Assembly: GCF_010548465.1 (NCBI RefSeq)
Contig: NZ_JAAGMD010000321.1
Location: 1 to 64,000 of the forward strand
Length of the DNA stretch: 64,000 nt
Origin: Streptomyces sp. SID14436
GTDB taxonomy: Bacteria > Actinomycetota > Actinomycetes > Streptomycetales > Streptomycetaceae
Reading direction: 5' to 3'
A program made the position numbers and the translations under genes. How positions within the stretch are numbered: position 1 is the stretch's first letter; each line of letters opens with the position of its first letter. Below the pieces are notes generated by a model, which saw only the letters and a list, made by a program, of their open reading frames with translations, searched no databases and had not been told where the DNA came from. This document shows, piece by piece, positions 1 through 59,403 of the stretch.

Positions 1-324
1 CCCGGGTGGATCTGCCCGAGTGGGTCGATTCCGCACCGCGACCTGCTCAACGACACACCGCATGAAAACGGGAGCCTGCTCCCCCCCAGCCACGTGAGAG
101 ACGACCGTGCGAACAGACAGGCTCGGTGGCAGCGGCGCCGGGCTGTCTGATCGGCCTCCTGCCATAAGCGCCGGCGCTGATGGCGCAGGGGCCCCGGCAC
201 ACCGTCGGGAGACCCCCCATACGGTCGTGCTCGCGGTGAAGCATTGTCTGAGCGGCGCGCACCAGGTCTGCAGGTTCTTTAGTCTGGCTACAGGAGCGGA
301 CACGGGCAGCAAGGGAATTGGACG
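1..324. other. Upstream region, no gene seen
   Basis: No convincing coding sequence in either strand; the short open frames here are shadows. The only functional signal I can point to is the ribosome-binding sequence AAGGGA at 311-316, placed 8 bases before the ATG at 325. Confidence 0.6.
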
Positions 325-3300
325 ATGATGGCGACCCATGAGGCCGGCGGCGCAGACCATACCCAGGCGCTCTTGTGGTCTGCTCCCGAAGGTCCACTGC
401 CGGCGCCGCCCATCGACACCAGGGCGCAGGTGCTGCCCGTCGGCGACCTGGAGTGGCCCGACGCAGAGCGTCTGTTCCTCAGGCTGCTGCACACCGTCCG
501 GCCCGTCCAGTACGCCAAGCTCTTCGGTGTGCCGGGTCAAGCCCAGGGCGGGATCGACGCTTACGCTCGGCTTCCGCTCGACCTGGCGCACGGCGAATCC
601 AGCGGCCGGGACTACATCACCCTGCAGTCCCGGCGAATCAGGACGCTGACCGCAGCCAAGATTGAGAAGGCCGTCGACGACCTCCTGGCGGGGGAGTGGG
701 CGCACAAGACGGCGAGGTTTCACTTCGCCACCTCATTCGACTTGCAGGACACCAAGCTGGACACGGCAATCCGTGAGCAGACGGAACGGCTGGCCGAGCT
801 CAAGATCACCTTCGTTCCATGGGGCGTCCAGGAGGTCTCCAGCCTTCTAAAAGACCAGCCGCGCATTGTTGATGACTTCTTCGGCCGACCCTGGGTGGAG
901 CGCTTCTGCGGCACGGACGCAGCCCAAGGCCTGGCACATAATCTGCCCCAGCAGGACAGTCGAGAACTCCGAGCCGAGCTGCGCGAGCTCTACCACGCTG
1001 TCTTCTCCGCCCAGGGCGGAGTCCACACGGTCGACGACGCCGAGTCAGATGACACGTTCGTCGTCCTGGATGTCGATCCCAACCGACAGCGGCCTGACCG
1101 CTTCGACGCTGAACAGCCCGAGCCGGCCGCCGAAGACCAACGTTGGGCGCAGGACCCCGGGGACGGACACACCTACATCGCCTCACGGCTGGGCGGCTCG
1201 CGGCAGTCGTTCAGATCCGCCCACCAGCTCCTCGGGCGTAGCAACCAGGTAGGCCCAGCCACAGGTGCCGTCATGGCGGCCGATGAGTGGCTGGCCGGCG
1301 GCAAGTACCGGCTGCTCGTCGGCCGTCCGGGAGCGGGAAAGTCCAGCCTGTTGCGGTTCATCGCGGCCGACCTGCTCTCCGCTCAGCCGCAATCGGTCAC
1401 GCTGCAGCGGGAACACGGCACCGACCTGCCCGTCTGGCTGCCGTTCGGATTCCTGTGCCGCCACCTCGAAACATCGACAGAAAACTCCCTCGTCTCGGCC
1501 GCCGAAGCCTGGCTGAGGTCGCAGAGCGCCGCCCACCTGTGGCCGCTGGTAGAACGCGCGCTGCGGGACGATCGCCTGCTCCTGCTCATCGACGGCATCG
1601 ACGAGTGGAGCGACGTCAGCGCAGCCGAACGTGCCCTGGGAACCCTCGAGGCGTTCCTTGGCCGCACGGCGGCTTCAGCCATCCTCTCCACACGCCCGTA
1701 CGCAGTCGACCGCCTCAACTGGAGGCGACCCTGGGAGCAAGCGGAGATCACTCCGCTGACCGACCAGCAGCGCCGGACGATCTCAGCTGCCGTCCTCGGG
1801 CCAGCCGAACGACCGCTGGACATAGCAGCCAGTCCTGCGATGTGGAGCGGCGGCATCGAGGCGTTCCTGGCCCAACTGGAGACCATTCCGGAGCTCGCCG
1901 AACTATCTCGGTCACCCCTCTTTCTCACCCTGCTCGCCACAACCTGGCAAGGCGAGCCCCTCCCACGTCAACGGTTCAAGATCTACGCCCGACTCGTCGA
2001 ACTGCTCGTGGAGAAGCACCCTCAGATGCGCCAGCGTGCTTCACACGCTCACGGGGCTGTCCTGACGGCTGCAGAGGCCACGATGCTGTTCGCTGCTGTG
2101 GCTTACCGACTGCGCGTCAAAGACCCTACCGGCACTGTTACCAAGGCGGAGATGCGCACGCTCATCGTCGAGTCGATGACCGACGACCAGGTCCTCGGCT
2201 ATCCGCAACCAGAAGCCCGCCGCGTCGCCGATGCCGTCCTCGCCCTGGCGGAAGACGAATTCGGACTGATCGTGTCGCACGGCGCTGGCTCCTACGGCTT
2301 CCTGCACCGCGTAGTGCTTGACCATCTGGCCGGCGAGTACCTAGCCACCCGCCCCGCTGAAGAACAGAAAACAGTCGTTCAACGAACGGTGCAGGATCCG
2401 GCCTGGCGTGATGTGCTCCTGGCACTGCTGACCGCGCAGATCAGCTCTCACACCACCGAGCACCTGCTTGCCGCGGCCCTCGACACCGACACGCAACGGT
2501 GGGCAGACATCGATGGATACGAGCTGCTCGCCGAGGCACTCGCCGCCGGTGCCAAGCTCACTCCGAGAGCGCAGAGCCTCTACATCAACCAGCTCGTCGA
2601 ACGAGTAGAAACCCATCCCTCGCTGCCTCATCGCGCCAACCTCATCACCGCGCTCACCAGCATGCTCGCAAGCCACGCCGCACGCACGCACCTGCTGCCG
2701 GTCATGAAGCGCTGGCTCACAGCACCCCGCCCTAACCCTTCGCCGACCATGTGGGCGCTGCACGATCTGGATATCGACGACAACAGGGCCGCCGAGTACC
2801 TGCTGTGGGGCATGCGACACCCAGACGAGCAGGTGAAAGTCAACGCGGCAGCAGCCATCGCCCACCGATTCGGTGGACAGCCGCACATACTGAAACAGCT
2901 GATCACTTTCACCGAAACGGGTCCGTCCTCAGCCATTCAGGCCGCTGCCCTCCTCGCCCTCAGCCGCGGCTGGCCCGACACACCCGAGACCGCACGGCTG
3001 GTCGACTGGGCGCGGCGCCAGCCATCCAGGCCGCTCCGGCTGGTCGCTCTGCAGGCCCTGCAGCGCACCACCCCGTCAGGCGATGCCACCCTGTACCGGC
3101 AAGAAGAGCGAGACTGGCTGCTGTCCCTGCTACACAGGGAAGACTTCCACTCGGGCCCATGGCCCACAGCCGACCTCATCAACATAGCCGCCACCGCGGA
3201 TGCACAGGCAGCCGACTTCGCGCTGGAGACCCTGACGACGAACGGACGCAACGGCGGCGACCGCAGCCTTGCGTGGATCCTGGCCTGTCACGCATTCGCC

Positions 3301-5550
3301 GACGACAACCGCTTCAAGACCTGGGTAGCCGAGCAGCTCTCGGCCCCAGAACAAAACGGGCTGATCTTGTACGACGTCAGCATGATTCCCCAGCAGTGGC
3401 GCGCCGACCCGAACTTCGCGCAAGCTCTGCGGCCCTATGTTGAGAACGAGTTGGGAGGCGTGACGCCTTACCTCGCAGCCGGTCTCGCTACCGCACTTCC
3501 GCCCGCCGAAGCTCAAGCCCTGCTGCTGCGCAACCTGGACGGACACCGCCCCTACGCCGCAGCCCGCACACTGGTCGAGCAATACGCCGACGACGAGCAG
3601 GTCCGCACTGCTCTCACCCGCAGGCTTCGCGGCGACTTCGACCAAGCGGCTCCGATGGCCGGCGTAGCCGTAGATGTCCTCGGCCCGCAGGAGGGCTTCG
3701 CCGTCCTGGTGTCCCTGTTGCGCCAGCCAACCACCGATCACGGGTCCGAGAAGCACGTCGTTGTCGCCGAGACACTAGCCGAAACCTGGAAGACGTTCGA
3801 ACACACCGCTTCAGAACACCATGCGGAAGCTGAAGCCGCACGAGAAGTCCTTGCCGCCTACGATCCAGCCGAACTGGCAGCCCTGTGCACGGCGGTGAGC
3901 CCTCACCCGTTGATGTGGCACGTCCCTGCGGTCATCAGCGCCTGGCCTGATCAACCAGCCGTCCAGGATTTCGCCGACCGGCTCCTCCATGACACACGGC
4001 CCATCGTCTCGGGAATTGCGGACACCATTCCGGTCGCCATCCTCAGGGCCTACAGCAACAGGACCGATGTCCCGTCCCGCCGGATCCTCGACAAGACCCT
4101 CACCCTGCTCAAGCACATCGGCCCAGAGTTGCGCGAAGTCCTGGCGTTCGAACTCGCGCACAGCGCACTCTCCGTGGCCGAACTCGTCGACGTCATGACG
4201 GAATGGAAGAACGAGCCAGACACCGCTATCCGCCGCACCGCATTCATCGGGCTGACCCAAGTGATCAAGCGCCACCAGCAGGCTCACCACGACCTGGCGG
4301 GCTCAGCCACCTGGACAGCCGAGATGCAATGGCTGCGTGGCGAGATCAGGGACGAGCTGTGCGCCTACGGTCCCGAACTCGAAGAGCGCCGTCAACTGGC
4401 ATGGATCGGCATGCTCATGCTCAGCGATCTGAGCCTGATGGACGGCATTAGGGAAACCATCGGGCGTCCTGACGCGCCCAGCGTCACCCTCGATGTTCTC
4501 TACGGCCGTGACGTGGACCAGATCCTGGTGGACCTCGCCGCCGAGAACTGGGAGCAGCTGCGCTCTCATCTCGGCGATCAAGTCTTCGAGCGGCTGAACG
4601 GAAGGACCAGCAAACGAACGGCGAGTGAGCAACGGCGCCACGTCATATCGGCTCTGGCAACAGTTGCTTCCCGCTACCCCGCCATCGCTGAGCTGCTCCG
4701 CGATGAGGCGGACAACGACGCCACCCTGCGCCAAGACGAGCGCTTTCTCTCGTGGGCCAAAGAAGAGAACAGGGGCGACGAAGGGGTCCTGCGCGCCGTC
4801 GTGGCCAACCTCGCCCGGACGCACCACCGAGAGGGCTACGACCTCGACTCCCTGTTGGACCGAGACAGCTGGAGCGTGTCCGATGAGCTGTTCAAGGCCA
4901 TCCTCACCGAAGAGACGATCAGTACCCGGCCAGGCTTCGTTCAAGAAGGTGACGGGTTGGCTGCCTACACGCAGCTGTTCCCTTCGGCCCCCTTGGCCGC
5001 CGCCACCTTCCGCGACCTTGAAACGTGGTTCACAACAGACCGCGATGCTCGCCAACCCCGCGAACGGGGCAGCGTCCTAGGCATCGCGTTCGGCGCCGCC
5101 CCACCGAGGGATCTGCCAGCCCTCGCGACCCGCGCGCACACCCGATTCCGTCTGGATATCTTCGACAGGTACCTGTCGATGTTCACCAAGCCGCTGATGC
5201 GGCGGCTTCGCACCGACGCAGACGCCATTGAGGCGTTCAAGGATGCGCTCAACGACCCCATGGGAATTTGTGAAGACAGCCCCATCATGGCCGACCCATG
5301 GGACCCCATTGCCCACGCCCACCCGGAAGTGCAAGCCATGCAGCGCAGATACCTCTTCGCGGTGGTACTGCGGCAAGTTGGCGCGTTGCCGCAGGCGGAT
5401 GCGGCAGCAACCATCTCCATCCTCGAATCCGCATCACCCGACACCGTGGTGCACAACCCTTTCACCCACCACGAAGGCCCACTCTGCCTTGCCGTACTCG
5501 ACCTCGCCGTGAGCGCAGCTGATCCCGAGGCACTTGTGAGGCGGTGGTGA
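325..5550 (+). CDS. Giant NACHT (STAND) NTPase with Mrr-like N-terminus, probable anti-phage protein
   Basis: A 1,741-residue single-polypeptide STAND ATPase. Residues about 75-200 resemble an Mrr-type PD-(D/E)xK nuclease: GGIDAYARLP is followed by ITLQSRR (98-104) and LTAAKIEKAVDDLL. The lysine normally found in the E/Q-x-K motif is replaced (Q-S-R), so nuclease activity is uncertain. The NACHT core has Walker A GRPGAGKSS (333-341), Walker B LLLLIDGIDEW (418-428, Asp423) and the arginine-bearing ILSTRPY strand. The last ~1,000 residues are leucine/alanine-rich helical repeats, HEAT-like, the usual sensor region of STAND proteins. Known Avs and other bacterial NACHT proteins recognise phage products and then activate an N-terminal effector. 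That role here is inferred from architecture. The start is supported by AAGGGA at 311-316. It stands alone, with no partner gene in its operon. Confidence 0.85.
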   Translation: MMATHEAGGADHTQALLWSAPEGPLPAPPIDTRAQVLPVGDLEWPDAERLFLRLLHTVRPVQYAKLFGVPGQAQGGIDAYARLPLDLAHGESSGRDYITLQSRRIRTLTAAKIEKAVDDLLAGEWAHKTARFHFATSFDLQDTKLDTAIREQTERLAELKITFVPWGVQEVSSLLKDQPRIVDDFFGRPWVERFCGTDAAQGLAHNLPQQDSRELRAELRELYHAVFSAQGGVHTVDDAESDDTFVVLDVDPNRQRPDRFDAEQPEPAAEDQRWAQDPGDGHTYIASRLGGSRQSFRSAHQLLGRSNQVGPATGAVMAADEWLAGGKYRLLVGRPGAGKSSLLRFIAADLLSAQPQSVTLQREHGTDLPVWLPFGFLCRHLETSTENSLVSAAEAWLRSQSAAHLWPLVERALRDDRLLLLIDGIDEWSDVSAAERALGTLEAFLGRTAASAILSTRPYAVDRLNWRRPWEQAEITPLTDQQRRTISAAVLGPAERPLDIAASPAMWSGGIEAFLAQLETIPELAELSRSPLFLTLLATTWQGEPLPRQRFKIYARLVELLVEKHPQMRQRASHAHGAVLTAAEATMLFAAVAYRLRVKDPTGTVTKAEMRTLIVESMTDDQVLGYPQPEARRVADAVLALAEDEFGLIVSHGAGSYGFLHRVVLDHLAGEYLATRPAEEQKTVVQRTVQDPAWRDVLLALLTAQISSHTTEHLLAAALDTDTQRWADIDGYELLAEALAAGAKLTPRAQSLYINQLVERVETHPSLPHRANLITALTSMLASHAARTHLLPVMKRWLTAPRPNPSPTMWALHDLDIDDNRAAEYLLWGMRHPDEQVKVNAAAAIAHRFGGQPHILKQLITFTETGPSSAIQAAALLALSRGWPDTPETARLVDWARRQPSRPLRLVALQALQRTTPSGDATLYRQEERDWLLSLLHREDFHSGPWPTADLINIAATADAQAADFALETLTTNGRNGGDRSLAWILACHAFADDNRFKTWVAEQLSAPEQNGLILYDVSMIPQQWRADPNFAQALRPYVENELGGVTPYLAAGLATALPPAEAQALLLRNLDGHRPYAAARTLVEQYADDEQVRTALTRRLRGDFDQAAPMAGVAVDVLGPQEGFAVLVSLLRQPTTDHGSEKHVVVAETLAETWKTFEHTASEHHAEAEAAREVLAAYDPAELAALCTAVSPHPLMWHVPAVISAWPDQPAVQDFADRLLHDTRPIVSGIADTIPVAILRAYSNRTDVPSRRILDKTLTLLKHIGPELREVLAFELAHSALSVAELVDVMTEWKNEPDTAIRRTAFIGLTQVIKRHQQAHHDLAGSATWTAEMQWLRGEIRDELCAYGPELEERRQLAWIGMLMLSDLSLMDGIRETIGRPDAPSVTLDVLYGRDVDQILVDLAAENWEQLRSHLGDQVFERLNGRTSKRTASEQRRHVISALATVASRYPAIAELLRDEADNDATLRQDERFLSWAKEENRGDEGVLRAVVANLARTHHREGYDLDSLLDRDSWSVSDELFKAILTEETISTRPGFVQEGDGLAAYTQLFPSAPLAAATFRDLETWFTTDRDARQPRERGSVLGIAFGAAPPRDLPALATRAHTRFRLDIFDRYLSMFTKPLMRRLRTDADAIEAFKDALNDPMGICEDSPIMADPWDPIAHAHPEVQAMQRRYLFAVVLRQVGALPQADAAATISILESASPDTVVHNPFTHHEGPLCLAVLDLAVSAADPEALVRRW

Positions 5551-6279: not shown

Positions 6280-7344
6280 TCAGATGGTGCGGCTGCGGCC
6301 GATGGCCAGGGATTCCAGCAGCTCCTCGGTGATGCGCTCCTGCTTGTTCCAGATCGCTTTCTGGGCGCCCTGGCTGACGAGCTGGGACAGGGCCCGCAGG
6401 TAGCCCTTGGTGCGGCGGTGCAGGTATTCGTGCAGGTTGGTCAGGTCGTCCGGCTGGTGGTGGTGCAGGCACAGGTTCTTGTCGAACTTGCGGACGATCT
6501 TCGTGAACAGTTTGTGGCCGTCCGTGTCGTAGCCGATCCGGCTGGTGCGCAGGGCGGCGTAGTCGCCCCAGATCTCCTCGTTGTCGGCCAGAGCGGTTTC
6601 CCGGTCCCGGGTCAGGGGATCGACGATGGAACGGGCGGCCCGTCCGGCGAAGAGGAAGGTGGCACCGGTGCTTTCACTGATCTCTTCCAGGTAGGCGAAT
6701 GACTCCTCGGCGTCCGCGCCGGCCCGCAGCTGCTCGATGCCGTCGATGAGGACCAGCAAGGTGGAGCTGTTGCGCATCACATGGCAGATGGAGCGGGTGG
6801 GGTCGCTGCCGCCGTCGTGCTTGAGGCCGAGGAAGGAGGCGAAGGCTGCCGGCCAGTTCCGCCGTCCGCCGCGGGCCAGGGGAGGCACCCGCAGCGCGAT
6901 CACCGGGATGCGGTTCTCGTCCGGCTCATACAGGCGGGCGATCTTGTTCTCGTAGTGGCGGCCGATGTACTGCAGGATCTCGGTCTTGCCGGTGCCGCGG
7001 GGGCCTTCGATGATGACACCGGTCTTGCCGTGGATGCGTTCCCGGTTGGCCAGCAGATGCTCGTGGACGACGACCAGGGCCCGGCCGATGGCGGGGGTGA
7101 CCACGGTCGGCATCAGGGCGTGATAGCGCAGCCGCAGGTCGTTGTCGGCGACTTCCGTGCCGGGCGGCGGGCTGTCGGCCAGGTCGGGCCGGGTGCGGTC
7201 CAGGGCGGCGAAGGTGCGCCAGTTGCTCAGGGTGTTCAGCCATACCGGCCGGGGCGCGGTGAACACCGGCGTGGGGGCGGGGGAGTCGATGAGTAGACGG
7301 ATGTCATCGTCTTCGGTCTCCTCGATGACCGGTGGCTGCGTCAT
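6280..7344 (-). CDS. TnsC/TniB-like AAA+ transposition ATPase
   Basis: A 354-residue AAA+ ATPase of the TniB/TnsC type, the regulator that links target selection to the transposase in Tn7- and Tn5053-like elements. Walker A is GPRGTGKTEI (Lys120) and Walker B is LLVLIDGIEQL (Asp201). The downstream FLFAGRAARS segment resembles a sensor strand. The ATG at 7344 overlaps the stop of the tnsB C-terminal frame by ATGA, so the two are translationally coupled; this also identifies the true tnsB end. Last gene of the minus-strand operon tnsA-tnsB-tnsC. Family assignment rests on P-loop plus context; a plain AAA ATPase is the alternative, but the neighbours make that unlikely. Confidence 0.82.
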   Translation of the reverse strand: MTQPPVIEETEDDDIRLLIDSPAPTPVFTAPRPVWLNTLSNWRTFAALDRTRPDLADSPPPGTEVADNDLRLRYHALMPTVVTPAIGRALVVVHEHLLANRERIHGKTGVIIEGPRGTGKTEILQYIGRHYENKIARLYEPDENRIPVIALRVPPLARGGRRNWPAAFASFLGLKHDGGSDPTRSICHVMRNSSTLLVLIDGIEQLRAGADAEESFAYLEEISESTGATFLFAGRAARSIVDPLTRDRETALADNEEIWGDYAALRTSRIGYDTDGHKLFTKIVRKFDKNLCLHHHQPDDLTNLHEYLHRRTKGYLRALSQLVSQGAQKAIWNKQERITEELLESLAIGRSRTI

Positions 7345-9714
7345 GTCCTGTCCTCCTGCGGGGGGTCGGTTTCGGCGGGCAGGTCCAGCAGGTGACGCGC
7401 CACGCTGTCGAGGCTGTCGTCCAGGTCACCCAGATCCGCCAGGAGCGAGGACACTTCGGTGTCCGCGCCGCCCGGAGCGTCCGGTCCGTGGGCGGGCCTG
7501 GGCGCGATCTCTTCTTCCGCGGGGGAATACAGGCTCGGCTCGTCCAGCTCCAGCACCGTCAAGGGTCCCAGCGCGTCCAGGTCCAGCGCCTCCGCGTCGG
7601 CGAACGGGTCGAAAACGCCGTCACCGGACGGCTCCCACCCGCCATCCAGCCCCGGCACGGGCGCGTAGCCGTCGGGCACGCTCACCACACCCGGGTCGTC
7701 CGGACCCTGTCCCGCCCGCTCCAGCAGGTCGGCCAGGACCTGCGCGATGGCTTCGTCCTGCGTGTGGCGGCCGCCGCGCGCCACGTACTCCGCGGTGGCC
7801 GAGTCCCACAGGTGCTGTGTCCACGGGGCGCCGATCAGGTGCTGGTGCTTGAAGACCGGCAGTGATCCACTCGCCGGAGCGGTGGTCGCGCAGCCACACC
7901 TGCTCGGGCGTGTAAGGGTTGTAGCGCAGCTCCCACCCGTCACGCTTCTTGCCCTTGAGCCCCGACGGCGTGTTGCGGACCTCCTCGAGTTCCCCTTTGA
8001 AGTTGTCGTAGGTGCGGTTCTTGAACCGGATGCCGTCATCGCGCACCCCGACCCAGGCGGTGGGCAGCAGCTGGAGGTAGTCCGCAAAGCCCAGCGGGAT
8101 CGGTAGGTAGCCAGCCGCCTGCACGCCCGCTGCGTACATCTGGTTCGGAGTCAACGGCGGCAGGTTCGGCTCGTAAGGGCTGCGCAGCTCCTCATGCGGC
8201 CGCGCCTGCCAGCCGACCGCGATCCACTCCTGCAGCAGATTGTCCAGCTCCTGCAGCGTCCACAGCCGGTCCGGATCGATCTCTTTCCCGCGGCGGCTGA
8301 AGTCCCGCCCGGTGTAGGAGTTGACGTGCTGGCTGAACAGCGACTTGATCGACGCAAAGGTCCGCTCGACGATCGCCTTGTCGGTCGGGGTGCGCTTGCG
8401 CGCCGGACGCACAGAGATGCCGAGGTAGGAGCAGGCGTCGAAGAAGGTTTGCCCGGTGAAGACCGTGCCGTGGTCGATCACGATCGTCTCCGGCATGATG
8501 ACCGGCCGGGCCGCTGCGTGCTCCATCCGCGCGTCGACCTCTAGCAGTTCCTCATACGGCAGATCCGAACGGGCCGCGGACGCGGCCCCGTCGAAGCCAG
8601 GCCGCATCGGGGCCGGCACCATGCACAGCGCCAGCAGCAGTGAGGCGTCCACTGCCTTGGTGGCCCGCCCCTTGCTCGTGCCGGTGCTCAGCAGCGCCCT
8701 CGTCTGTTGCCGGGTCTTGCGCCGGCCCGCAGTCTTGGGCCGTAGCACGGCTGCGATGATGCTGCGCGTGAAAACGTCGATGGCTGCCGTGAGTTCCACC
8801 TGGGTGGGCCGTCCGTCATCGCCCAGCACTTTGACATCCAGCGCGGTGGAGTCGATCTGCACGAGCTCGCCCGGCGCGGTGGCGGTGGTCACAGCGAACG
8901 GCGGGGCCGGACGGTTGAGACGGTCCTTGCGGCGCCGGGTGGGATCCCGCAGCTGAAGCGCGTCGATCCCCAGCCGCTTCAACAGCGCGTACAGCGTGGG
9001 GTCGGCCGGCACCTTCACGCCGGGGCCCAGCCTGGCCCGTGCCGTGCGCCGCAGGTTCTTGAACAGCGTGCGGGCGTCGGTGGCGGCTTCTTCTTTCGCC
9101 TGGCGTTCCTGCAGCGCCAGCAGCAGGTCCACCACCCGAGCATCGGTGCGCCCGTTCACCGTTGTCTGGCGGGTACGCCGCTTATCGATGAGCCCCCAGA
9201 TGTCCTCGCGAAGAAAGGCCAGCCGCTTGCGCTGGACCGTCTTCCACGACACCTTCCAACCCAGCACGGCCTGCAGCTCGGCAGCCTTGCGTTCATAGCG
9301 CTCGACCAGCGTGAACAGCTCCGGGTCATAACCTTCCCGCGGTCTGCTGCCCTCGGGGACCTCCGGCAGCAGACCGGTGTCGACCTCGATGACGTGCCGC
9401 CGCCACATCCGTGCTTCATGGGCGCACTCGGCACTGACCCCCTCCAGCATGGACCAGTTCGGCAGCGGCTCCGCCGACACCGGCCGGCCCGACCGGTCGA
9501 GCACGGCGAAGTCCCCGGCTGCGGCCAGGAACTGAATCGGCACCGACACCGCAGGCGCCGCCCCACCTGAGGCAGGCTCCAGATGCGCCGTCGTACCCGA
9601 CAGGGCCGAGACGCCATAGTGGCTGCCCATCCAGCGCACCTGGTCGCCGGGCGCCAGAATGCCGCGCGGCGCCAGGCCAGCGGCCGGGGGCTGGCTCTCC
9701 GGCACCACGCTCAC
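7341..9714 (-). pseudogene. TnsB/TniA-like DDE transposase, frameshifted near the C-terminus
   Basis: Retroviral-integrase-type transposase of the Mu/TnsB/TniA group. The catalytic triad is visible: Asp288 (ELVQIDSTALDV), Asp414 (TIVIDHGTVF) and Glu450 (AIVERTFASIKS), with 35 residues between the second Asp and Glu. A beta-barrel-like Mu C-terminal region follows. The opening frame runs 9714-7621, but homology leaves it at about residue 618: after EWIT the sensible continuation (PVFKHQHLIGAPWT) lies in the +1 frame, so one extra base sits near position 7860. The second frame runs about 173 more residues to 7341 and overlaps the tnsC start by ATGA, as expected for the authentic end. The start overlaps the tnsA stop (9711-9714). 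Could be a real inactivating mutation, a sequencing error or, less likely, a recoding site. Confidence 0.8.
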
Positions 9715-10469
9715 GCTGTCTTCCCCTCAAGGGGCTGCCCCATCGCCGACGGCATCCGGCCCGACAATCTGATCACACTGCTCGGGCCCATGGCCTTGTT
9801 CCACTCCATGCCCAGCTCCTGCCGCCACAGCAGGTGATACAGGCGCGGCAGCGTCGACAGTCGCGGCAGCCCCGTCGCCCGTACCCCCTCCTCCAGCTCG
9901 CAGGGAGTCCGGAACGCGGCCTTCAGAGCCTGCTCGACCTCCCGGTCGCCCCACCGCGGGTGCCGGTAATGCGACACCCACCGCAGGTTCGCCAGCGCCA
10001 TAGGTCCCGGAATCCGCGGCATCCCCAGCTCCCAGCCCGCCTCCTGACAAGCCTGGCGCAACACCTGCTGCTGACGCTGCCACCGCGGACTCGGCCCGCT
10101 CGCCGGAGGGCAGGCAACGACCAGCGTCGCCCCCTGATCCGTGCGCACGAAGAAGTCCGGCACGACGCTGCGCTCCCGGCCCCGCGCACGCCACTTGATC
10201 TTCGCGGACCAAGCGGTGAACTCCGTCACCGACGGGCTGAAATCCAGCAGCATGGCCACCGCCAGCACGTTCATGGACCGGCAGCCCACGTGCTTGCCGG
10301 TCGTGGCGGCCCACCACCAGGTAGCAATGCTGCGCTGAGAGGGATGCCGGGCCGGACGCCACACCTCGCCCCGGCGGGTGAGCGGAACAGAGCCTGCCTG
10401 GGCGACGGGGACCGTGATGCTCCTGCTGCCGTCCTCAAGGCGGTGGACCGCCATCAATGCCTCAGCCAT
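9711..10469 (-). CDS. TnsA-like transposase endonuclease subunit
   Basis: A 252-residue protein resembling the TnsA-like heteromeric transposase endonucleases, which cut the 5' ends of Tn7-type elements while TnsB cuts the 3' ends. The core shows the family order: a short N-terminal segment, SMNVLAVAMLLDFSPSV, then TEFTAW with a candidate catalytic Glu, VVPDFFVRT with the Asp, and a strand LVVACP where family members normally carry a catalytic Lys or a D-V-R/K. That lysine is not obvious here, so cleavage competence is doubtful. I prefer the ATG at 10469, which has GGGAG four bases upstream, over a GTG at 10514. It overlaps tnsB by four bases, indicating coupled translation as the first gene of the operon. 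Confidence 0.72.
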   Translation of the reverse strand: MAEALMAVHRLEDGSRSITVPVAQAGSVPLTRRGEVWRPARHPSQRSIATWWWAATTGKHVGCRSMNVLAVAMLLDFSPSVTEFTAWSAKIKWRARGRERSVVPDFFVRTDQGATLVVACPPASGPSPRWQRQQQVLRQACQEAGWELGMPRIPGPMALANLRWVSHYRHPRWGDREVEQALKAAFRTPCELEEGVRATGLPRLSTLPRLYHLLWRQELGMEWNKAMGPSSVIRLSGRMPSAMGQPLEGKTA

Positions 10470-10776
10470 CGTGCTCCCGCATCTGTCCGGCCTCTGCAAA
10501 TCCTCATATTGCACGGCGAGTTGACTTTAGTGCGGGGGGAGATGGCCAAGGGTCAAATACCGTCATCCTCAAAGCTGCCGACCGTCCCGCCGACGGCCGG
10601 CGTGACGCCCCGCAGGGCGAGACCATGACCACCCTCACCTCTCCCTGCAGACCGCTGACCTGGACGGTCCCACGCCAGCCGCTTATCCGTCCTGTCCCGG
10701 GCCGCACCTGCCGACACAAGATCCACGATGACCGGATGCCGACGCCGCACGCCGTCGGCCTGCCAGATTCGGCTGC

Positions 10777-12831
10777 GTGCGAGAAGACCACCCCGACACC
10801 TCCGATCTCCACGCCCGCGTGGACGGGCTCCTCGCCGACCTGGCAGCACGGCGCAGCCCCCTGCCACCGGCCTGCGAACGGACCCGGCTGCGCGAGGCCG
10901 CGGGCCTGTCCCCTGCACAGGTAGCGGACACCCTCGTCTGCCAGGCTCAGGACATCGAGGCATGGGAGGCCGGGAATCGGGAACCGATCGGTGTTCGTCG
11001 CACGGCTTACGCGCGGCTTCTCAAGGGCCTTAAGCACATGGAGAAACCGAAACGGGACGACAAGCTCGTCCCCGGCGAGAGCACCGCATCACCCGCACGG
11101 CCCGCACGGCCCACAGCACCCACGTTGCCCGTCGGTCCGCAGCAGCCAGCGCTCTTCCCCGCATCCGCCGAAGCACCACCACGCCCGCCAGTGGCTAGCG
11201 AACCACCCGTCACGCCCACCGGGCCGCTGGCCGTTATCGACCACGACATCTTCCTGGTCGCCCACTTCACCAACGGCACCCGCCTGCCCCTGGACGCGGA
11301 CGACCTTGTCGGCCTGCTGGAGTGGACGCTGCGCAGCGGTCTGCACCAGGAACGGCTGTCCCCCCAAGGCAAGGACAGTGACCCGCTTATCGTCCTGACC
11401 CCCGCAGCGAGTGCCGCACTGCACCTGCCCGCCCACCTGGAGGACCGAACCGCCCTGTGCCTTCCTGCCGGCCATCCCGTCCTGACGCAGCTGGGGCAGG
11501 CAGGCTTTCTCCTCACCCGCCGCGGCTTCGCCCCGTGGGCCGGGATCTACCGGCCGGTCGTGAACAACAGGCGCGCCTCGGTACACGTCGCCGTCATGGC
11601 CTGGGGAGCCCTGTCTCAGGACGGGTGGAACCTCCCACCACTGCCGCCGTCAGACCTGGCACGGCTGCTGGGCACCTACGCGGCCCGGCTCTTGACCCCC
11701 AGCGGCTCCACCGCGGTCTGCGGCGTCAGACTGATGACAGCCCTGCGGCCACCCACCAAAGCGACCTACGACCCGGCCACCCTCAAATGGGTGTCCGGGC
11801 CCAACCCCGGCGCCCTGCACAAGCCGTTCGAGCCAGCGCCCCCAGAAGCCCCCGACGCCCACCCCCTGGCTAAAGGCCGCCCGCCGGAGCAGGCCATGGA
11901 GGAGGAAGCCTGGGACTGGAGCCGCCCGCCCGACCAGCAGGAGACAGCCGACTTCCCGCACGTCGTCGGACTCGACACCAACATGGCCTTTATCGTCGCC
12001 GCCTCCAGGCTGTCCGTCGGCCGCAATGCCCCGCCCCGCCATGTCACGACACCCGCCTTCGACGAGAAAACTCCCGGCGCCTGGTACTGCGACCTCAGCC
12101 ACGCCCCGCACGACCCGCGGCTGCCCTCGCCTTTCACCGCCACCGGTCAACCCCCGACCAAACCCGCCTGGTACACGACCGTCACCCTCGCCTACGCCAA
12201 GGAACTCAACATCGAGGTCCGGCCTATCGAGGCCTACGTCCGCGACGATCACGGCTCATATCTGGACCCCTGGTACACGCGACTGAGAGACGCCTACCTC
12301 GCCACCATGGCCGACCTCGGAGTACACAAGGACATCCCCCAGGCCGACTACCTGGCCGCCATGAAAAGACTCTCGACGGCAGACCCCGCCCTGCTCGCCC
12401 TGCTCGCAGCGATCAAAGCCACAGGAAAAGGCGGCCTCGGCAAACTCCGCGAAGGCCCCCGTGCCCCCGCCGCCCCCTACACACGCTGGCCCGCACTCAA
12501 CCAGCCCACCTGGCGCCCCGACATCCGTGCCGCCGTCATCTCACGCACCCGCGTCAGCCTGCACCGCAAAATGCGCAGGATGCTCACCGAGACCGGCCGC
12601 GGCCCGCTTGCCGTCCTCTCGGACTGCGTCATCTACCCCGCCCACCAGCCGACCGCCCTCGACGTCGTCCCCACCGGCCCCGACCAGACCGGCATCAAGG
12701 GACTGCTGTGCCTGGGCGTCAACCCCGGCTTCGTCAAAGAAGAAGGCGTTCAGACCATGGCCTGGTACCAGCACCAGCACACCCAAGGCCTCAACCCCGC
12801 CCGCTACATCAAAGCCCACCCCGACGCCTGA
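10777..12831 (+). CDS. tap: Telomere-associated protein Tap
   Basis: A 684-residue protein with the full layout of Streptomyces Tap, which binds the telomere 3' overhang and recruits terminal protein Tpg for end-patching of linear replicons. An N-terminal helix-turn-helix (RLREAAGLSPAQVADTL ... EAWEAGNREP) is followed by a proline-rich linker and the conserved body starting at PLAVIDHDIFLVAHF. It ends in the typical PARYIKAHPDA. The body carries blocks that look like a family B polymerase palm: VVGLDTNMAF (Asp400), IKATGKGGLGKL (Lys547) and AVLSDCVIYP (Asp616). That resemblance is my inference. Start is GTG at 10777, with only a weak ribosome-binding site. Unusually, tpg does not follow directly: a minus-strand tniQ-like gene intervenes. 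Confidence 0.9.
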   Translation: MREDHPDTSDLHARVDGLLADLAARRSPLPPACERTRLREAAGLSPAQVADTLVCQAQDIEAWEAGNREPIGVRRTAYARLLKGLKHMEKPKRDDKLVPGESTASPARPARPTAPTLPVGPQQPALFPASAEAPPRPPVASEPPVTPTGPLAVIDHDIFLVAHFTNGTRLPLDADDLVGLLEWTLRSGLHQERLSPQGKDSDPLIVLTPAASAALHLPAHLEDRTALCLPAGHPVLTQLGQAGFLLTRRGFAPWAGIYRPVVNNRRASVHVAVMAWGALSQDGWNLPPLPPSDLARLLGTYAARLLTPSGSTAVCGVRLMTALRPPTKATYDPATLKWVSGPNPGALHKPFEPAPPEAPDAHPLAKGRPPEQAMEEEAWDWSRPPDQQETADFPHVVGLDTNMAFIVAASRLSVGRNAPPRHVTTPAFDEKTPGAWYCDLSHAPHDPRLPSPFTATGQPPTKPAWYTTVTLAYAKELNIEVRPIEAYVRDDHGSYLDPWYTRLRDAYLATMADLGVHKDIPQADYLAAMKRLSTADPALLALLAAIKATGKGGLGKLREGPRAPAAPYTRWPALNQPTWRPDIRAAVISRTRVSLHRKMRRMLTETGRGPLAVLSDCVIYPAHQPTALDVVPTGPDQTGIKGLLCLGVNPGFVKEEGVQTMAWYQHQHTQGLNPARYIKAHPDA

Positions 12832-12863
12832 CCCCTCCCACGCCGATGCCACCTGCCCCACAC

Positions 12864-13931
12864 CTACTGCGTCGGCCGCCACGGCATGCTCGTCATCCGC
12901 GCTCCCAGACGCCACGGAAGACACGACGCCTCCTCCAGCGGACCATGCACCGGAACCACACGATGCGGCTCCAGCAACGCCAGCGGCACACTCCGGGGAT
13001 GCGCCCGCGCATCCTGCCGCGCCAGACGCTCGACGACCGGCACCGTATTGCGGTGCGACATCAGCCACGCCTCCAACCCCCGATGCCCCCCGGCGGCCAT
13101 CTCCTCACCCATCCCCAGCCGTTCACCCACCCACTGCACCCACCGCCCCGTCGACCACCCCGCAGGACCGCCCGCGAAATTGCGCCCCACCGCCCGCTGC
13201 CGCTCCCGCACGGCCATCGCCTCCGCCACGATGACCACCTCCGGATACACCACCAGGGGAACAGCCCACAGCGCCGAACGATCCACCCCCAAAACCTCCT
13301 GCCGCGCCCGCCACACCCCACGCCAGGCCATCTGACGGCACTGCCACCAATACACCGCCACCTGCTGCGCATCCGCCAGCAGAGCCCGCGCGTACAGACC
13401 TGTACGACGCTCCAGACCCACCCGCCGCACGTGCGCCTCCACCACCTCTGGCAACCGCTCGAGGCCGACCTGGAACTGCCCCCGGCCCACAGCCGTCCAC
13501 CGTCCGTGCCGCACACACACCGCCCACTGCCCACCGCCCACCCGCCACACCGGACGCTCACCGAGCCCAGCCGCGCACAACGCACAGGCCTGCACCGGCA
13601 TCCAGTTCTCCGGCCAGGCTTCCACCTTCACCTGGTGGCGGGCCCGCGGACCGATGCCGCTGTCGCCGAGCGACACCAGCGCCCGTTCCAGATGCGGCAA
13701 GGGCCGTCCACTGACCTCCGCCAGACGCTGACGCGCCGCAGGCCCCAGACGCACCTCCTCAGCACCCGGATCAACCGCCCGGATGGTCCTCGGCGCACCG
13801 ATGTACTGAGCCAGCTCCTCGAAGGCCATCCCATTGCGCACCGCGAGCCGCCACAGATACGACGCGATCGTCTCGCCGCGCACCATCACCACACGTCCCG
13901 GCAACCGCGGGAGCGGCTCTTCGATCCTCAT
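12864..13931 (-). CDS. TniQ-like target-selection protein between tap and tpg
   Basis: A 355-residue TniQ/TnsD-type protein. The N-terminus has the family signature: LPRLPGRVVMVRGETIASYL, then WRLAVRNGMAFEELAQYIG. A zinc-binding segment follows (ACALC ... WAVCVRHGRW, the C-x2-C ... C-x2-H pattern) and then a tryptophan-rich helical region. TniQ proteins choose the target site for Tn7/Tn5053-type transposition together with TnsC/TniB, so this is the probable partner of the tnsABC operon at 6.3-10.5 kb. It is convergent with tap (33 bases between stops) and divergent from tpg (69 bases between starts), an arrangement that breaks the usual tap-tpg operon. Start ATG 13931 is chosen because it opens the family signature; the frame continues upstream but overlaps tpg. 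Confidence 0.78.
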   Translation of the reverse strand: MRIEEPLPRLPGRVVMVRGETIASYLWRLAVRNGMAFEELAQYIGAPRTIRAVDPGAEEVRLGPAARQRLAEVSGRPLPHLERALVSLGDSGIGPRARHQVKVEAWPENWMPVQACALCAAGLGERPVWRVGGGQWAVCVRHGRWTAVGRGQFQVGLERLPEVVEAHVRRVGLERRTGLYARALLADAQQVAVYWWQCRQMAWRGVWRARQEVLGVDRSALWAVPLVVYPEVVIVAEAMAVRERQRAVGRNFAGGPAGWSTGRWVQWVGERLGMGEEMAAGGHRGLEAWLMSHRNTVPVVERLARQDARAHPRSVPLALLEPHRVVPVHGPLEEASCLPWRLGARMTSMPWRPTQ

Positions 13932-14000
13932 GCAGTGATCGTCACAACCCCCGCCGCCGGCGCCACACAAACAAGCCACCCACCACGAAAGCTGCCCGCC

Positions 14001-14570
14001 GTGCCTTTGAGGCTGAGCGCCGACACCGTCCAGGAAGCACTCGACCGGGCCGACTCCCGGCACTGGACCCGCAACCCGCCCCGTTCCATGCGGGTCCGGC
14101 TCACCTACCTCCTCAAGCACTACGAGCCTGCCGCCCTTGCCCGTCGGCTCCAGACGACACCCTCCCACCTGGACGCTCTGCTCGACGCTCAGCAGGTAGC
14201 GGAAGACGACCTGCATAACGCAGTGGAACGCGAAGTCGTCCGGATATGGCAGCCTCGCGTCCGCCGCCGCGCCCACGCCACCCTCCTCGCCAACGGCGGC
14301 CGGATGACACTCAGCTTCCGCGCATGGCTGGGATTCACCGCAACAGCCGGATCAAGTGACGACCCACGCCTGCGCTTTTTGAGCCTGCACCTGGACGCCC
14401 CCTTTCCGGAACGCCTGTTCACCGCCCGGCGCATCGGAGCACCGGAATCAGAACTGCAAGCCATCCTCAACGACGCACTCAGCACGTGCTACTTCCACCG
14501 CGGCCGGCCCGCACACCTCAGGGAGAGCGTGAGCCTCGACCGCATCGACTTCCTGGAGTTCTACTACTGA
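14001..14570 (+). CDS. tpg: Terminal protein Tpg
   Basis: A 189-residue protein matching Streptomyces Tpg, the protein covalently attached to the 5' ends of linear chromosomes and plasmids that primes end synthesis; the family is usually about 185 residues. Visible family features are the N-terminal segment MRVRLTYLLKHYEP, a helix-turn-helix (AALARRLQTTPSHLDALL), the WQPRVRRRA basic block, FRAWLGFTATAGSSDDPRLR and the closing SLDRIDFLEFYY. The GTG at 14001 opens the homologous region; the same frame is open far upstream but only as a shadow of tniQ. It has its own promoter region in the 69-base gap, because tap lies beyond the oppositely oriented tniQ gene. Transcription independent of tap is therefore likely. 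Confidence 0.88.
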   Translation: MPLRLSADTVQEALDRADSRHWTRNPPRSMRVRLTYLLKHYEPAALARRLQTTPSHLDALLDAQQVAEDDLHNAVEREVVRIWQPRVRRRAHATLLANGGRMTLSFRAWLGFTATAGSSDDPRLRFLSLHLDAPFPERLFTARRIGAPESELQAILNDALSTCYFHRGRPAHLRESVSLDRIDFLEFYY

Positions 14571-14612
14571 GATCGATCCGCTCCTCCCGCTCCCTGCAAT
14601 GAGCCCGTGAGC

Positions 14613-14652
14613 CGAAGCACGGTAGTTGTCACATAGGCAGGCTTGCTGTCAC
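14613..14652 (-). repeat. Two abutting 20-bp transposase-binding-type repeats
   Basis: Two head-to-tail copies, at 14613-14632 and 14633-14652, of the pattern CGARGCA-N7-TGTCAC (reverse of GTGACA-N7-TGCYTCG). The first forms most of the left inverted end of the 1,043-bp element. The second is a weaker match in its first half (ATAGGCA). Confidence 0.7.
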
Positions 14653-14719
14653 CGGCGAAGCTGCGGGTCGCTGGGCCCGCCCATCCGGGAAGTCAGCGCC
14701 TCGGGCACAATCAGGAGCC

Positions 14720-15460
14720 GTGCCCACCCCTCCTGATCCCGCAGTCCTGTACCCCGATGTCGCGGCCTGCGGCAGCCTCGCCGCGGCGCTCCGGGCCGAG
14801 GCGGAAGGCTGCCTCGCCGGTGTTCCCGTCACGTCCTCGGACTCTGATCCGCTGCTTTACGCGACCGTCACAAGCATGCTGCCGCACCGCGAGCCGCTGC
14901 AGATCAGCGTATGGTCGCACGAGCGGCGGTGGTCGATCCGCGGCACGGAACCGTTCCAGACCCTGTCCCTCATTGATGGCAGGACGGACGACCTGGCGGA
15001 GGTCGCCAGGGCCGCCCGGGCCTGGCACGACGGTGAGCCGCTGAACGGCATTCGCCAGGCGGCACCCTTCGTGCACCTGACTGGCCGGTTCGAGGTGCCC
15101 GATCTCGATTCCGCGCGACTGGTGGAATCTGAGTGGCAGAGCATGCGCGTGGAGGCGAGCGGGCTGGACTACGTCTGGCAGAAGACGTACCAAGCCCTGA
15201 TTGAGGCGGCGCACGCCGAGCCGGCGCTTCGTGCCCTCTACCCGTTCACGAGCCACTGGGCGTTGCGCTTCTCGACCAGCACCCGCCCGCACCTGACCGT
15301 CGTCGGACCGTGCCTGACCGCGGGCAGCGACGGCATGTACGGGGTGGGGACAGGGTTCATCACGCCGGACCTTGGCCTGTTCGCCACAGCGCACGAGGCC
15401 GTGGCGGTGGCCGTGCACCATATGCCGTCCGGCCTCGGCCCGGTCACGCTTGGCGGATGA
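14720..15460 (+). CDS. DUF6193 family protein, passenger of the compact element
   Basis: A 246-residue protein I recognise as DUF6193, an actinobacterial family of unknown biochemical function often labelled a natural-product-biosynthesis protein. Family-like blocks are VWSHERRWSIRGT, the segment ending YPFTSHWALRFSTSTRP, HLTVVGPCLTAGSDGMYGV and the closing LGPVTLGG. No signal peptide or membrane segment is visible. The start is the GTG at 14720; AGGAG lies only two bases before it, closer than normal, so a slightly different start or leaderless translation is possible. The gene fills almost the entire 1,043-bp inverted-repeat element, with 111 bases before and 190 after it, so it is the element's only cargo. 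Confidence 0.7.
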   Translation: MPTPPDPAVLYPDVAACGSLAAALRAEAEGCLAGVPVTSSDSDPLLYATVTSMLPHREPLQISVWSHERRWSIRGTEPFQTLSLIDGRTDDLAEVARAARAWHDGEPLNGIRQAAPFVHLTGRFEVPDLDSARLVESEWQSMRVEASGLDYVWQKTYQALIEAAHAEPALRALYPFTSHWALRFSTSTRPHLTVVGPCLTAGSDGMYGVGTGFITPDLGLFATAHEAVAVAVHHMPSGLGPVTLGG

Positions 15461-15518
15461 CCTTGCCCGACAGAGGGGCCGTGTGGGTGCAACCACCGCC
15501 CGCATCGCCCCGGCACTG

Positions 15519-15645
15519 GTGACAGAAAGGCTGCCGAACAAGCACTTGTGACAGGTCGAATGCCTCGTTGGTGACAACCAGGCTGCCTCGACCGTCCCCA
15601 TTCACCACTTCAGCCGGTCCTGCTGGTGACAACTACCGTGCTTCG
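15519..15645 (+). repeat. Four spaced 20-bp transposase-binding-type repeats
   Basis: Copies of GTGACA-N7-TGCYTCG at 15519-15538, 15548-15567, 15571-15590 and 15626-15645. The third and second match the consensus exactly; the first ends TGCCGAA; the fourth is part of the right inverted end of the element. Spacings between starts are 29, 23 and 55 bases. Together with the two left copies this gives the unequal 2 + 4 site layout seen at ends bound by TnsB-like proteins. Confidence 0.72.
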
Positions 15646-15849
15646 GCTCAGAGCCCGGGGCGGGGCAGGTGGTTGACCTCGGTCGCCCTCACGCGCTGCT
15701 TGCCAGCACGGGACTCGGGGCGGAAGGCGGACGCGGTGCTGTGGGACGTCGACCGTCGCGTTTCTGCCGCCTTTGACGCTCTTTCAGCTGCCATACTAGA
15801 TTGAGTCCCCGATCAGATAACAGAGTCCGCTTGTAGAAGGGAGGCTGGC

Positions 15850-53136: not shown

Positions 53137-56100
53137 GTGAACGACCACTCACCCGGAGATCTTTCCGGGCACTCCGGGCTGCGTCAGCCCGGGCGGAGAC
53201 GGGCCCTGCGCCACGTCTCCATGGGTTTGGCCGTCGTCATGTCGACGTCGGTCTTCTACGGGGCACAAGGTGCCGTTGCAGCTACGCTGCCCGCGGCACC
53301 CGTTGAGAAGCCTGCGAAGGCTGTGGCCACGTCGGCCGCGGACATCGCGTCGGCTCGGGTTGCTGCTCGGCTGAACAAGAAGCGTGTCGAGGCACTGTCG
53401 GAGCGCACGGAGACATCGACGACGTGGGCGAATCCGGACGGCACTCTGACCACAGAGCTGTCCGCCGGCCCGGTCCGGTTCCGCGACGAGGGTGAATGGC
53501 GCTCGGTCGATCTCGACCTGGTCCGCGACTCGGACGGCTCAGTTGCGCCCAAGGCGCACCCGCAAGGGCTCGAACTCGGCGAGCGGGGCGGCAAGAAGCT
53601 GTCGTCCCTATCGGAGAACGACGACGCGCCTGCCCGTGACCTGGTCACCCTCGGTGAAGGTGACCAGCAGATCCGCTTGCAGTGGAAGGGTGGCCTGCCG
53701 GAACCGGAGCTGGACGGCAACCGGGCAACGTACGTCGGCGCGGTGCCGGACGGTGACGTGGTCGTCGAGGCGACCCGCACTGGATTCGAGCAGTACGTCA
53801 CGATCCGCAAGCGGCCCACGCAGAAACGTTACTCCTACACGCTGCCACTGAAGGCCAAGGGCCTGAAGGTCAAGCAGCTCAAGGACGGCAGCCTGCTCTT
53901 CACCGACAAGAAGAGCAAGAAACGGGCAGTCATGCCCGCGCCCGTCATGTGGGACGCTGCCGTCGACAAGAGGTCCGGTGAACACACCAACCGGGCCAGA
54001 GTCTTGATGAAGGTCGTCAAGACCAAGGACGGCGTGAACCTGGTCCTGACCCCGGACGCCACGTTCCTCGCTGATCCGGACACGCAATACCCGGTCACGG
54101 TGGACCCGTCGACGTCCTCGCTGTCAAACGTCTTCGACACCTACGTCCAGCAGGGCGAAAAAGTCGACTGGTCCGCAGACACAGAGCTGGACCTCGGCAA
54201 TCCGGGCACGAAGAACGCCGACGGCACCCCGCGCACGGCACGCTCCTTCATCACCTGGAACACCACACCCATCCAGGACGCCCTGATCTCCAGCGCGAAG
54301 CTGAGCCTGTGGAACTTCCACTCCGGCAACACCGACTGCAAGGCCTACCCATGGGAGGTGTGGTCCACCGGCGCGGCCTCGACCTCCTCCCGCTGGACCT
54401 CCCAGCCGGCCTGGACCGCCAAGAAGGCAACCTCGACCGGTACGACCGGAAACGCGGGCTGTTCCACCCAGCCGGACGGGTGGATCAACGCCGACGTCAC
54501 CGGACTCGTTCAGGAGTGGGCCTCTGCCAAGGCGACCCGCGGCCACATGGGCCTGCGCGCCTCGAACGAGTCGGTCATCGCGCAGTGGAAGCGGGTCAAC
54601 TCCGCCAACGCGCCTTCCAATCCACCCAAGCTGGTCGTCACCTACAACTACCGTCCGCGCACCGGCACCAAGCAGGAAGCCGGCCCGCCGTACTTCTCCT
54701 ACAGCGGCGCCTACGTGGTGAACACCTCCACGCCCACGCTGCGGGACACCTTCGTGGACGCCAACGGTGACAAGGTCAACGGCACCTTCCAGATCTACGA
54801 CAACGCCACCAACACTCAGGTCGGCGACGTCATCGTGTCCAAGTACGTGCCTTCCGGGCAGGTCGCCTCCGTGACCGTCCCACCGGGCATGCTGGCCAAC
54901 GGCAAGACCTACAAGTTCCGCACCAGCCCGTACGACGGCACGCACTACAACACCGGCTGGTCGGCCTGGAAGACCTTCACCGTCGACACGACCGCGCCCG
55001 TCGCACCGACGAGCATCACGTCGGCGGACTACCCGTCGAACGCGTGGGTCAAGGGCACGGGCCAGGCCGGAACCTTCACCGCCACCCCGAACGGCACCGA
55101 CCACAACTGGCTCGAGTGGTCCCTCGACGGCGTGACCTGGACCAAGGTCGCCACCGCCGGCTCCAAGGCCGCCAAGGCCATCAGCATCACCCCGCCCAAG
55201 GACGGCACCCATACCCTCCAGGTGCGGCAGGTCGACAAGGCCGACAACAAGTCCGAGGCCGTCGAGTACACCTTCCACGCCGGACCGGGCGGATTCGTCC
55301 AGCCCTCCGACGGCGAGCGCACCGCGCGACGCCTGCCGCTGGTCGCCGAAGCCGACGGCAGCAAGTACAACGCCGTCTCCTTCTCCTGGCGCCGGTCCGA
55401 GGCCGACCCCTGGCAGCCGATCCCGGCCGGCCAGGTCACTTCGGGCGGCAACGCACTGACGGCGTGGCCCGTGGCCATGACGGGCGGCAAGAACAGCCCG
55501 CTGGTGTGGAATGCCACCGACACCGTCGACCCCGACGGCACCATCCAGATCAAGGCCGACTTCACCGGCCCCGGCGGCAGCGGCGCGACCGAACCCCTGT
55601 CCGTCGTGGTCGACCGCAACGCCTCCGGCGCCGCCGCCGACGAGGTGGGACCGGGCTCGCTGAACCTGCTCACCGGTGACTACACGCTGTCCGCCAGCGA
55701 CGCCTCGGCCTTCGGGCTGTCCGTGTCCCGTACGGCCTCCTCGCGCACACCGAACGAGGGCGCCAAGCAAGAGGGCCAGGCACCGATCTTCGGCAAGGAG
55801 TGGGTCTCCGGCACGGCTGCCGAGGCGCCCGAGTCGGACTACTCCCACATCCGGCGAACGTCGGACACGGCCGTCGCCGTTGTCGACTCCGAGGGCGAGG
55901 AGACGCACTTCACGGCCAATGCTGCCAAGACCGGCTGGGTTCCTGAGACCGGCTCCGAGGACCTGACCCTCACGGGTAGCGTGACCGGTTCGTTCACGCT
56001 CTCCGACACCGAGGGCACGGTCACCACCTTCACCAAACCGGATGCAGCCGCTACCACCTGGCAAGTCTCCTCCACACTCCTGGACGGACTGGCCAACACC

Positions 56101-59100: not shown

Positions 59101-59403
59101 AAGTGCCTCTTCTTCAACAAGAGGAACAAGCACTTCGTCATGCGAGACGGTCGACCGGGACTCCACTTCAAAAACCATCGGATCCGTGCCGAATGGGATC
59201 GGAGCAACGGCTGGCACGTGAACGTGGGCAAAAAGCACTATCGCGCACGCGACGCAATCAGAAAAGCCACCAGATCGGGCGGCCGCTTCCTGCGAGGCGT
59301 AGGCCGAGCAAGCCGCCGATGGGGACCGCCCATCTGGATTCCAAACGAAGTACACCGCTACCGTAATCCGTGCTACCCGCTCCGGCGCTGTCCGGCCGCA
59401 TAG
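53137..59403 (+). CDS. Secreted Rhs-repeat polymorphic toxin
   Basis: 2,088 residues. Signal peptide ([20 protein letters not shown] ... AVAA), then the DNRLRE precursor half shared with the protein at 39-43 kb ([58 protein letters not shown]), then a long run of YD/Rhs repeats (for example [43 protein letters not shown]). The core ends with the canonical [19 protein letters not shown] and [11 protein letters not shown] at about residue 1966. The variable C-terminal tip, about 122 residues and strongly basic, starts [17 protein letters not shown] and carries [21 protein letters not shown] do not recognise this tip as a known toxin fold; its end ([16 protein letters not shown]) is Cys-containing. 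GTG start 53137 with AAGGGG upstream. Immunity candidate directly downstream. Confidence 0.88.

Follow-up and report, generated by a model that had tools for sequence, protein, structure and literature searches.

A Tn7-like element of Streptomyces that carries tap and tpg: a probable one-ended, telomere-replacing transposon

Why should the genes of a Tn7-type transposition system be interleaved with those that maintain the telomeres of linear replicons? The question is raised by a stretch of 64,000 nucleotides from Streptomyces sp. SID14436 (positions 1 to 64,000 of contig NZ_JAAGMD010000321.1, here C158; the whole stretch is referred to as the window), in which tnsC, tnsB and tnsA (minus strand), tap (plus), tniQ (minus) and tpg (plus) follow one another between 6280 and 14570. 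Tpg is the terminal protein; Tap, which binds the DNA of the telomere, recruits it and primes it. There is good reason to think that the six genes belong to a one-ended Tn7-like transposon, a telomere-replacing or 'telomeric' element that carries its own capping genes. The basis for this reading is computed and consists of the gene order, its single origin, the co-divergence of its parts, one outward-facing end on each chromosome arm, a terminal inverted repeat with its boundary at that end, and ttrA-like and tpg genes cut at the junctions. We infer from these sequence comparisons that transposition would be the cause, that the element is likely to be one-ended in vivo, and that TniQ and Tap would be linked in targeting.

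Gene content and recurrence of the module

Profile searches placed all six genes in the order that an earlier note on this DNA had proposed; its 'complete TnsA/B/C-like operon' holds for the presence of the three genes but not for tnsB, which is frameshifted in the window copy. The tnsC-like AAA+ ATPase (6280-7344, minus) matches PF05621 TniB at 23.9 bits (cutoff 22.4) and PF13401, has the Walker A motif GPRGTGKT, and is 98–99% identical to the TnsC of loci L047 and L149. The tnsB-like DDE transposase (7341-9714, minus; rve and IS481-type profiles) changes frame between about 7857 and 7915, with its C-terminal part in the other frame (open reading frame 7341-8087); tblastn recovers it as two pieces in different frames, and L047 and L002 have intact homologues. 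The tnsA-like endonuclease subunit (9711-10514, minus) matches the 'TnsA-like' model NF033179 at 168 bits (cutoff 110; 2.3e-49).

The telomere-associated protein encoded by tap (10777-12831, plus; NF047542, 880 bits, cutoff 600) belongs to a divergent, transposon-borne clade, and tpg (14001-14570, plus; NF047541, 125 bits, cutoff 90) encodes a terminal protein that starts near 14001 and not at the beginning of a 620-residue open reading frame. In alignment, its priming position is a Ser followed by Asp (GSSDD); in the S. lividans Tpg, Ser at position 114 is functional (PMC3572947). Between the two lies the target selector gene tniQ (12867-13931, minus; PF06527, above cutoff), which converges with tap and diverges from tpg across a gap of 69 bp. 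Its product is the sole TniQ in the source genome, a draft of 6.84 Mb in 908 contigs, and carries a CxxC...CxxH motif that is invariant in an alignment across 20 relatives; a PDB profile search using it gave no match. Besides the module, the genome has a resident tap-tpg pair at 81.2-84.0 kb of C158 itself and a further pair on C476. A second pair at 16.2-19.3 kb, hinted at by a 74% DNA repeat, was ruled out, with no Tap or Tpg match there.

The TniQ search set comprised 393 Streptomyces, 395 Streptomycetaceae and 395 class-level genomes together with plasmids, and close relatives of the window TniQ were found within it in Streptomycetaceae only. Thirteen loci of the clade were examined (the window, linear plasmid L004 of S. 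laculatispora, L047-L054 and L149-L151), all of which have tnsC-B-A, tap, tniQ on the opposite strand and tpg in the same order and orientation at TniQ identities down to 45%, with 39-126 bp between the tap and tniQ matches and 76-161 bp between those of tniQ and tpg. Ordinary tap-tpg pairs in the same survey had no intervening gene, in keeping with the earlier note's premise that the two are normally adjacent. Because the order recurs in every locus of the clade, it is not a product of chance; the neighbourhood check that the note had proposed thus came out in favour of a recurrent tap-tniQ-tpg order. Its idea of a stable partnership between transposition module and telomere genes is borne out by recurrence, single origin and co-divergence, and its other suggestion, that the module had inserted into a tap-tpg operon, fails if taken as a chance insertion of tniQ, the arrangement being ancient and no ends flanking tniQ.

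The TniQ proteins of the 13 loci form one clade (98% by the Shimodaira–Hasegawa-like approximate likelihood ratio test, SH-aLRT), and the cassette Tap and Tpg are each monophyletic (99% SH-aLRT for both). Pairwise identities of TniQ correlate more closely with those of Tap (r=0.974) and Tpg (0.90) than with those of TnsB and TnsC (0.77), and the identities of TnsA, TnsB and TnsC track one another at 0.94-0.985; these correlations point to two co-evolving blocks, TnsABC and tap/tniQ/tpg, the point of exchange lying between tnsA and tap. Cassette loci are interspersed, in the tree of TnsB, with loci that have a TniQ of another clade beside a helicase gene. NBC_00564 has near-identical TnsABC, with a TnsB nested beside that of the window, yet it combines an ordinary tap-tpg with a helicase-side TniQ. 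Four loci (L048, L050, L150 and L151) combine a TniQ gene in tap-tpg with a second, from a different clade, by a helicase gene beside tnsC, and so have two targeting modules on one TnsABC.

The transposon end and its junctions

Homology on the tnsC side among C158, G132 and G509 stops at 5'-TGTCGGTTATTCGTGCAGTTGAGACA, a Tn7-like end of 26 bp, and sites resembling it lie inverted 40-200 bp inside. This end with its inverted internal sites is found in C158, G132, G509 and NBC_00564, and in degenerate form in L055; it has the TGT start and several TnsB-type sites of a Tn7-type terminus. In the source genome it lies outside the window: positions 1-588 of the window equal C158:98499-99086, and the assembled repeat puts the end TGTCGGTTATTCGTGCGGTTGAGACA (C158:97881-97906) 618 bp before base 1, so that window positions 1-101 (no strand assigned) belong to the portion of the element between the tnsC-side end and tnsC, as judged from the exact 588-bp overlap, the end scan and homology to the left flank in G132.

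Scans that allowed up to 7 mismatches revealed no second end in C158, G132:C30 or positions 1-117499 of the G509 left arm, and in NBC_00564 the end (2 mismatches) is a single copy in the entire 539-kb plasmid. In place of the two inverted ends and 5-bp target duplication of Tn7-like transposons, only one end per element was found across 117 kb of G509, C158, G132:C30 and a whole plasmid. Nothing is conserved as an end near tnsC, between tnsA and tap, or directly after tpg, and among close relatives homology ends within about 30 bp beyond the tpg stop.

In G509 each chromosome arm has a single end, at 106014 (minus) and 8852923 (plus), with the insides toward the telomeres. The last 14.2 kb of this chromosome repeats the left arm, from the end onward, in inverted orientation at 99.87% identity, so that the terminal inverted repeat stops, on its inner side, at the transposon end itself. 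In the source genome (G000), C770:1-1206 is identical to C158:97881-99086, and two different host flanks meet the same end. Four of seven junctions interrupt a telomere-associated gene (three ttrA-like helicases and one tpg) of which only the C-terminal half remains: outside the end, C770, the right arm of G509 and NBC_00564 each retain the C-terminal portion of a gene with a helicase-associated domain, beginning at about residue 422 to 530, and C158 retains a tpg from residue 102, up to the junction. Neither G509 nor the draft G000 was found to contain the absent N-terminal parts. Genes for ttrA-type helicases lie close to telomeres and are transcribed inward (PMC8743542), so the half lost at the junction is the telomere side; in L114 such a gene lies 0.8 kb from a hairpin-rich end.

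The tpg side of the element faces the nearer terminus in G509, G356, G254 and G227:C1, and chromosomal copies lie 82, 88 and 262 kb from the end, placing them at the ends of linear replicons. The polarity of the end and the absence of a second one fit a telomere as the other boundary; no assembly joins a telomere to the window's lineage. Four single-contig chromosomes (G007, G291, G389 and G449) have TniQ elements roughly halfway along the contig (G449 has two copies, inverted and 31 kb apart), and these assemblies seem to have been rotated so that the telomeres were placed mid-contig.

Proposed telomere replacement and rival explanations

The polarity of the end, the repeat boundary that coincides with it and the truncated genes at the junctions are the reasons for reading the element as a one-ended, telomere-replacing transposon, and they bring the earlier note's thought of a linear-replicon transposon with telomere genes aboard to the more specific idea of telomere replacement. 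The only true end would be that on the tnsC side, and the opposite boundary would be the terminus of the replicon. TnsA and TnsB would cut and join this lone end into a target close to the terminus of a linear replicon, the DNA distal to the target would be lost, and the incoming arm would supply a new terminus together with its maintenance proteins Tap and Tpg. Because TniQ has co-diverged with Tap, tniQ is read as a dedicated, Tap-linked telomere selector that most likely steers TnsC and TnsB to telomere-proximal DNA, perhaps via Tap or a Tap-bound structure.

The resident telomere genes of several hosts are in decay. In G632 the resident Tap retains residues 2-383 only and Tpg is split over two frames, in G254 both genes are fragments, in G356 only the last 97 residues of Tap are left, and G196 has cassette copies of tap and tpg only (other terminal protein systems were not searched). 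This suggests a takeover of telomere maintenance by the cassette genes in some hosts; a plasmid pair of S. rochei provides a precedent for a mobile tap-tpg that maintains a chromosome (Nindita et al. 2015, as cited in PMC8743542). It is possible, though doubtful, that Tap serves as the recognition partner of TniQ, in analogy to Cascade in CRISPR-associated transposons, and that the element finds ends via Tap, replaces them, and in some species would be the sole intact telomere system of the chromosome.

Several observations weigh against telomere replacement or takeover. No telomere sequence is tied to an element, the G509 assembly ends without telomere hairpins, and homogenisation of terminal repeats by recombination could have transferred the end between arms. 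The contig C158 has the look of a circle or of tandem copies, and no hairpin array of telomere type lies near the element (the maximum is at 65.1-65.4 kb). A pattern search for the end in the dual-TniQ and distant lineages gave none, so that the end is known only from the window's own lineage. A solo end with 2 mismatches on an S. phaeochromogenes plasmid (L201, 20173-20198) faces the farther plasmid terminus, and the 20 kb to each side of it contain no tns genes. The Tpgs of distant lineage I (L004, L052 and L054) have no Ser or Thr at the priming position, with GEF replacing GST or GSS, which makes takeover weaker in that lineage, and the truncated resident Tap of G356 resembles the type II set of PMC7205883, in which another protein has been proposed to replace Tap.

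A conventional two-ended Tn7-like transposon residing on linear replicons, with tap and tpg as cargo and a second end diverged or lost, would explain why TnsA, TnsB, TnsC and TniQ are all there, as in two-ended relatives of Tn7, and the region past tpg is variable enough among relatives to conceal an end; it is nevertheless unlikely, given the fruitless search over the 117-kb G509 arm, C158 and G132:C30, the one outward-facing end on each G509 arm, and the missing N-terminal halves of the interrupted genes. Turnover by recombination alone, in which tns, tap, tniQ and tpg are mere subtelomere residents and break-induced replication between arms or plasmids yields identical termini bounded at the end, draws on the rapid recombinational telomere exchange seen in Streptomyces populations (PMC7205883). 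We regard it as very improbable, since the boundary is the same 26-bp end in unrelated flanks of three genomes and one plasmid, and cuts coding genes where homologous recombination has no reason to halt. A chance recent insertion of tniQ, with no functional link, into an ordinary tap-tpg operon is hardly credible: tniQ does break the order of genes that are otherwise adjacent, but the recurrence in all 13 loci refutes such an origin, as do monophyly, the correlation with Tap and the conserved short spacings.

The standing of the window copy is a separate matter, and the chances appear evenly balanced that it is a decaying remnant no longer able to transpose, the circular look of its contig being either real or an effect of assembly. 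C770 has the same end and 1.2 kb of the element in common with C158, so the exact 588-bp direct overlap of C158 may reflect a circular molecule, copies in tandem or an effect of assembly. Given its frameshifted tnsB the copy may be inactive; relatives are intact, C158 has no telomere array near the element, and a full resident tap-tpg is also present in the genome. Against decay, the remaining genes are all open, and in a draft of 908 contigs the frameshift is possibly a sequencing error. A remnant here is compatible with the family overall being telomere-replacing transposons.

Neighbouring elements and known systems

Between the transposon end and tnsC lies cargo in the form of a NACHT/HEAT STAND-type protein of 1,741 residues (325-5550, plus; PF05729), possibly a defence gene, which is absent from the same place in G132 and forms an insertion of about 6 kb relative to it. 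Beyond tpg, a 1,043-bp cassette (14608-15650) is bounded by perfect inverted repeats of 25 bp (TGAGCCGAAGCACGGTAGTTGTCAC) and flanked by the 7-bp repeat GAGCCCG; its interior has repeated GTGACA sites and a DUF6193 gene but no transposase. The inverted repeats were considered as ends of the tns element and rejected: they point away, bound a 1-kb cassette with its own flanking repeat, and are present in unrelated genera. The 25-mer is present in 23 further contigs, some of them from Nonomuraea and Actinoplanes, and in L095 (2702-4870) two copies flank a TetR regulator and a hydrolase; the cassette appears to be a cargo-carrying non-autonomous element. Farther on are a large RHS-repeat protein (53137-59403) and a NucA/NucB-type DNase (61865-63352), which are polymorphic-toxin-like, with a second NucA/NucB gene at C158:86597-88087.

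Telomere replacement of this kind would offer a concrete mechanism for the fast turnover and mismatch of telomeres in Streptomyces, in that a transposon would swap the end and deliver the capping proteins along with the new one. The co-evolution of a Tn7 target selector with a telomere-binding protein is a testable case, and the surveyed hosts include candidate genomes in which a mobile system may be the last one remaining for the telomeres.

The earlier note knew of no described system of such composition, a statement overtaken by the telomeric transposons of linear bacterial genomes published in 2025 (Hsieh et al., Science 387:eadp1973, cited in PMC12669027). To judge from the title and that citation, the present element fits with this class and its novelty is modest: both are linked to telomeres on linear replicons, the present one with Tn7-type genes and a probable replacement of the replicon end. 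One telomeric class described in PMC12669027 is without TniQ and has CRISPR I-E5, whereas the window element has a TniQ and no CRISPR was seen with it.

With Tn7 and Tn7-like elements (TnsABC with TnsD/TniQ) it shares the core proteins, a TGT end with repeated TnsB-type sites, and a TniQ-type selector. Unlike Tn7, it has one end in place of two and its targets are telomere-proximal (ttrA-like and tpg), and on genomic grounds its TniQ is probably paired with Tap and not with a TnsD-type site or a Cascade partner. As in the Streptomyces Tap/Tpg end-patching system, Tap and Tpg are full-length by curated NCBI models and the priming Ser/Thr is retained in the window's lineage; unlike the resident genes, the cassette copies form a separate clade, are interleaved with tniQ and transposon-borne, and in distant members are without the known priming residue. 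Also related are the helicase-TniQ telomere-proximal Tn7-like elements of Streptomyces seen in the present survey, which lie at chromosome ends (6 kb in G090, 55 kb in G151 and 17 kb in G539, on both arms), have TnsABC of the same family and in some cases the same end motif (NBC_00564), but carry the other TniQ clade beside a helicase gene and no tap-tniQ-tpg cassette, both modules being combined in the four dual-TniQ loci.

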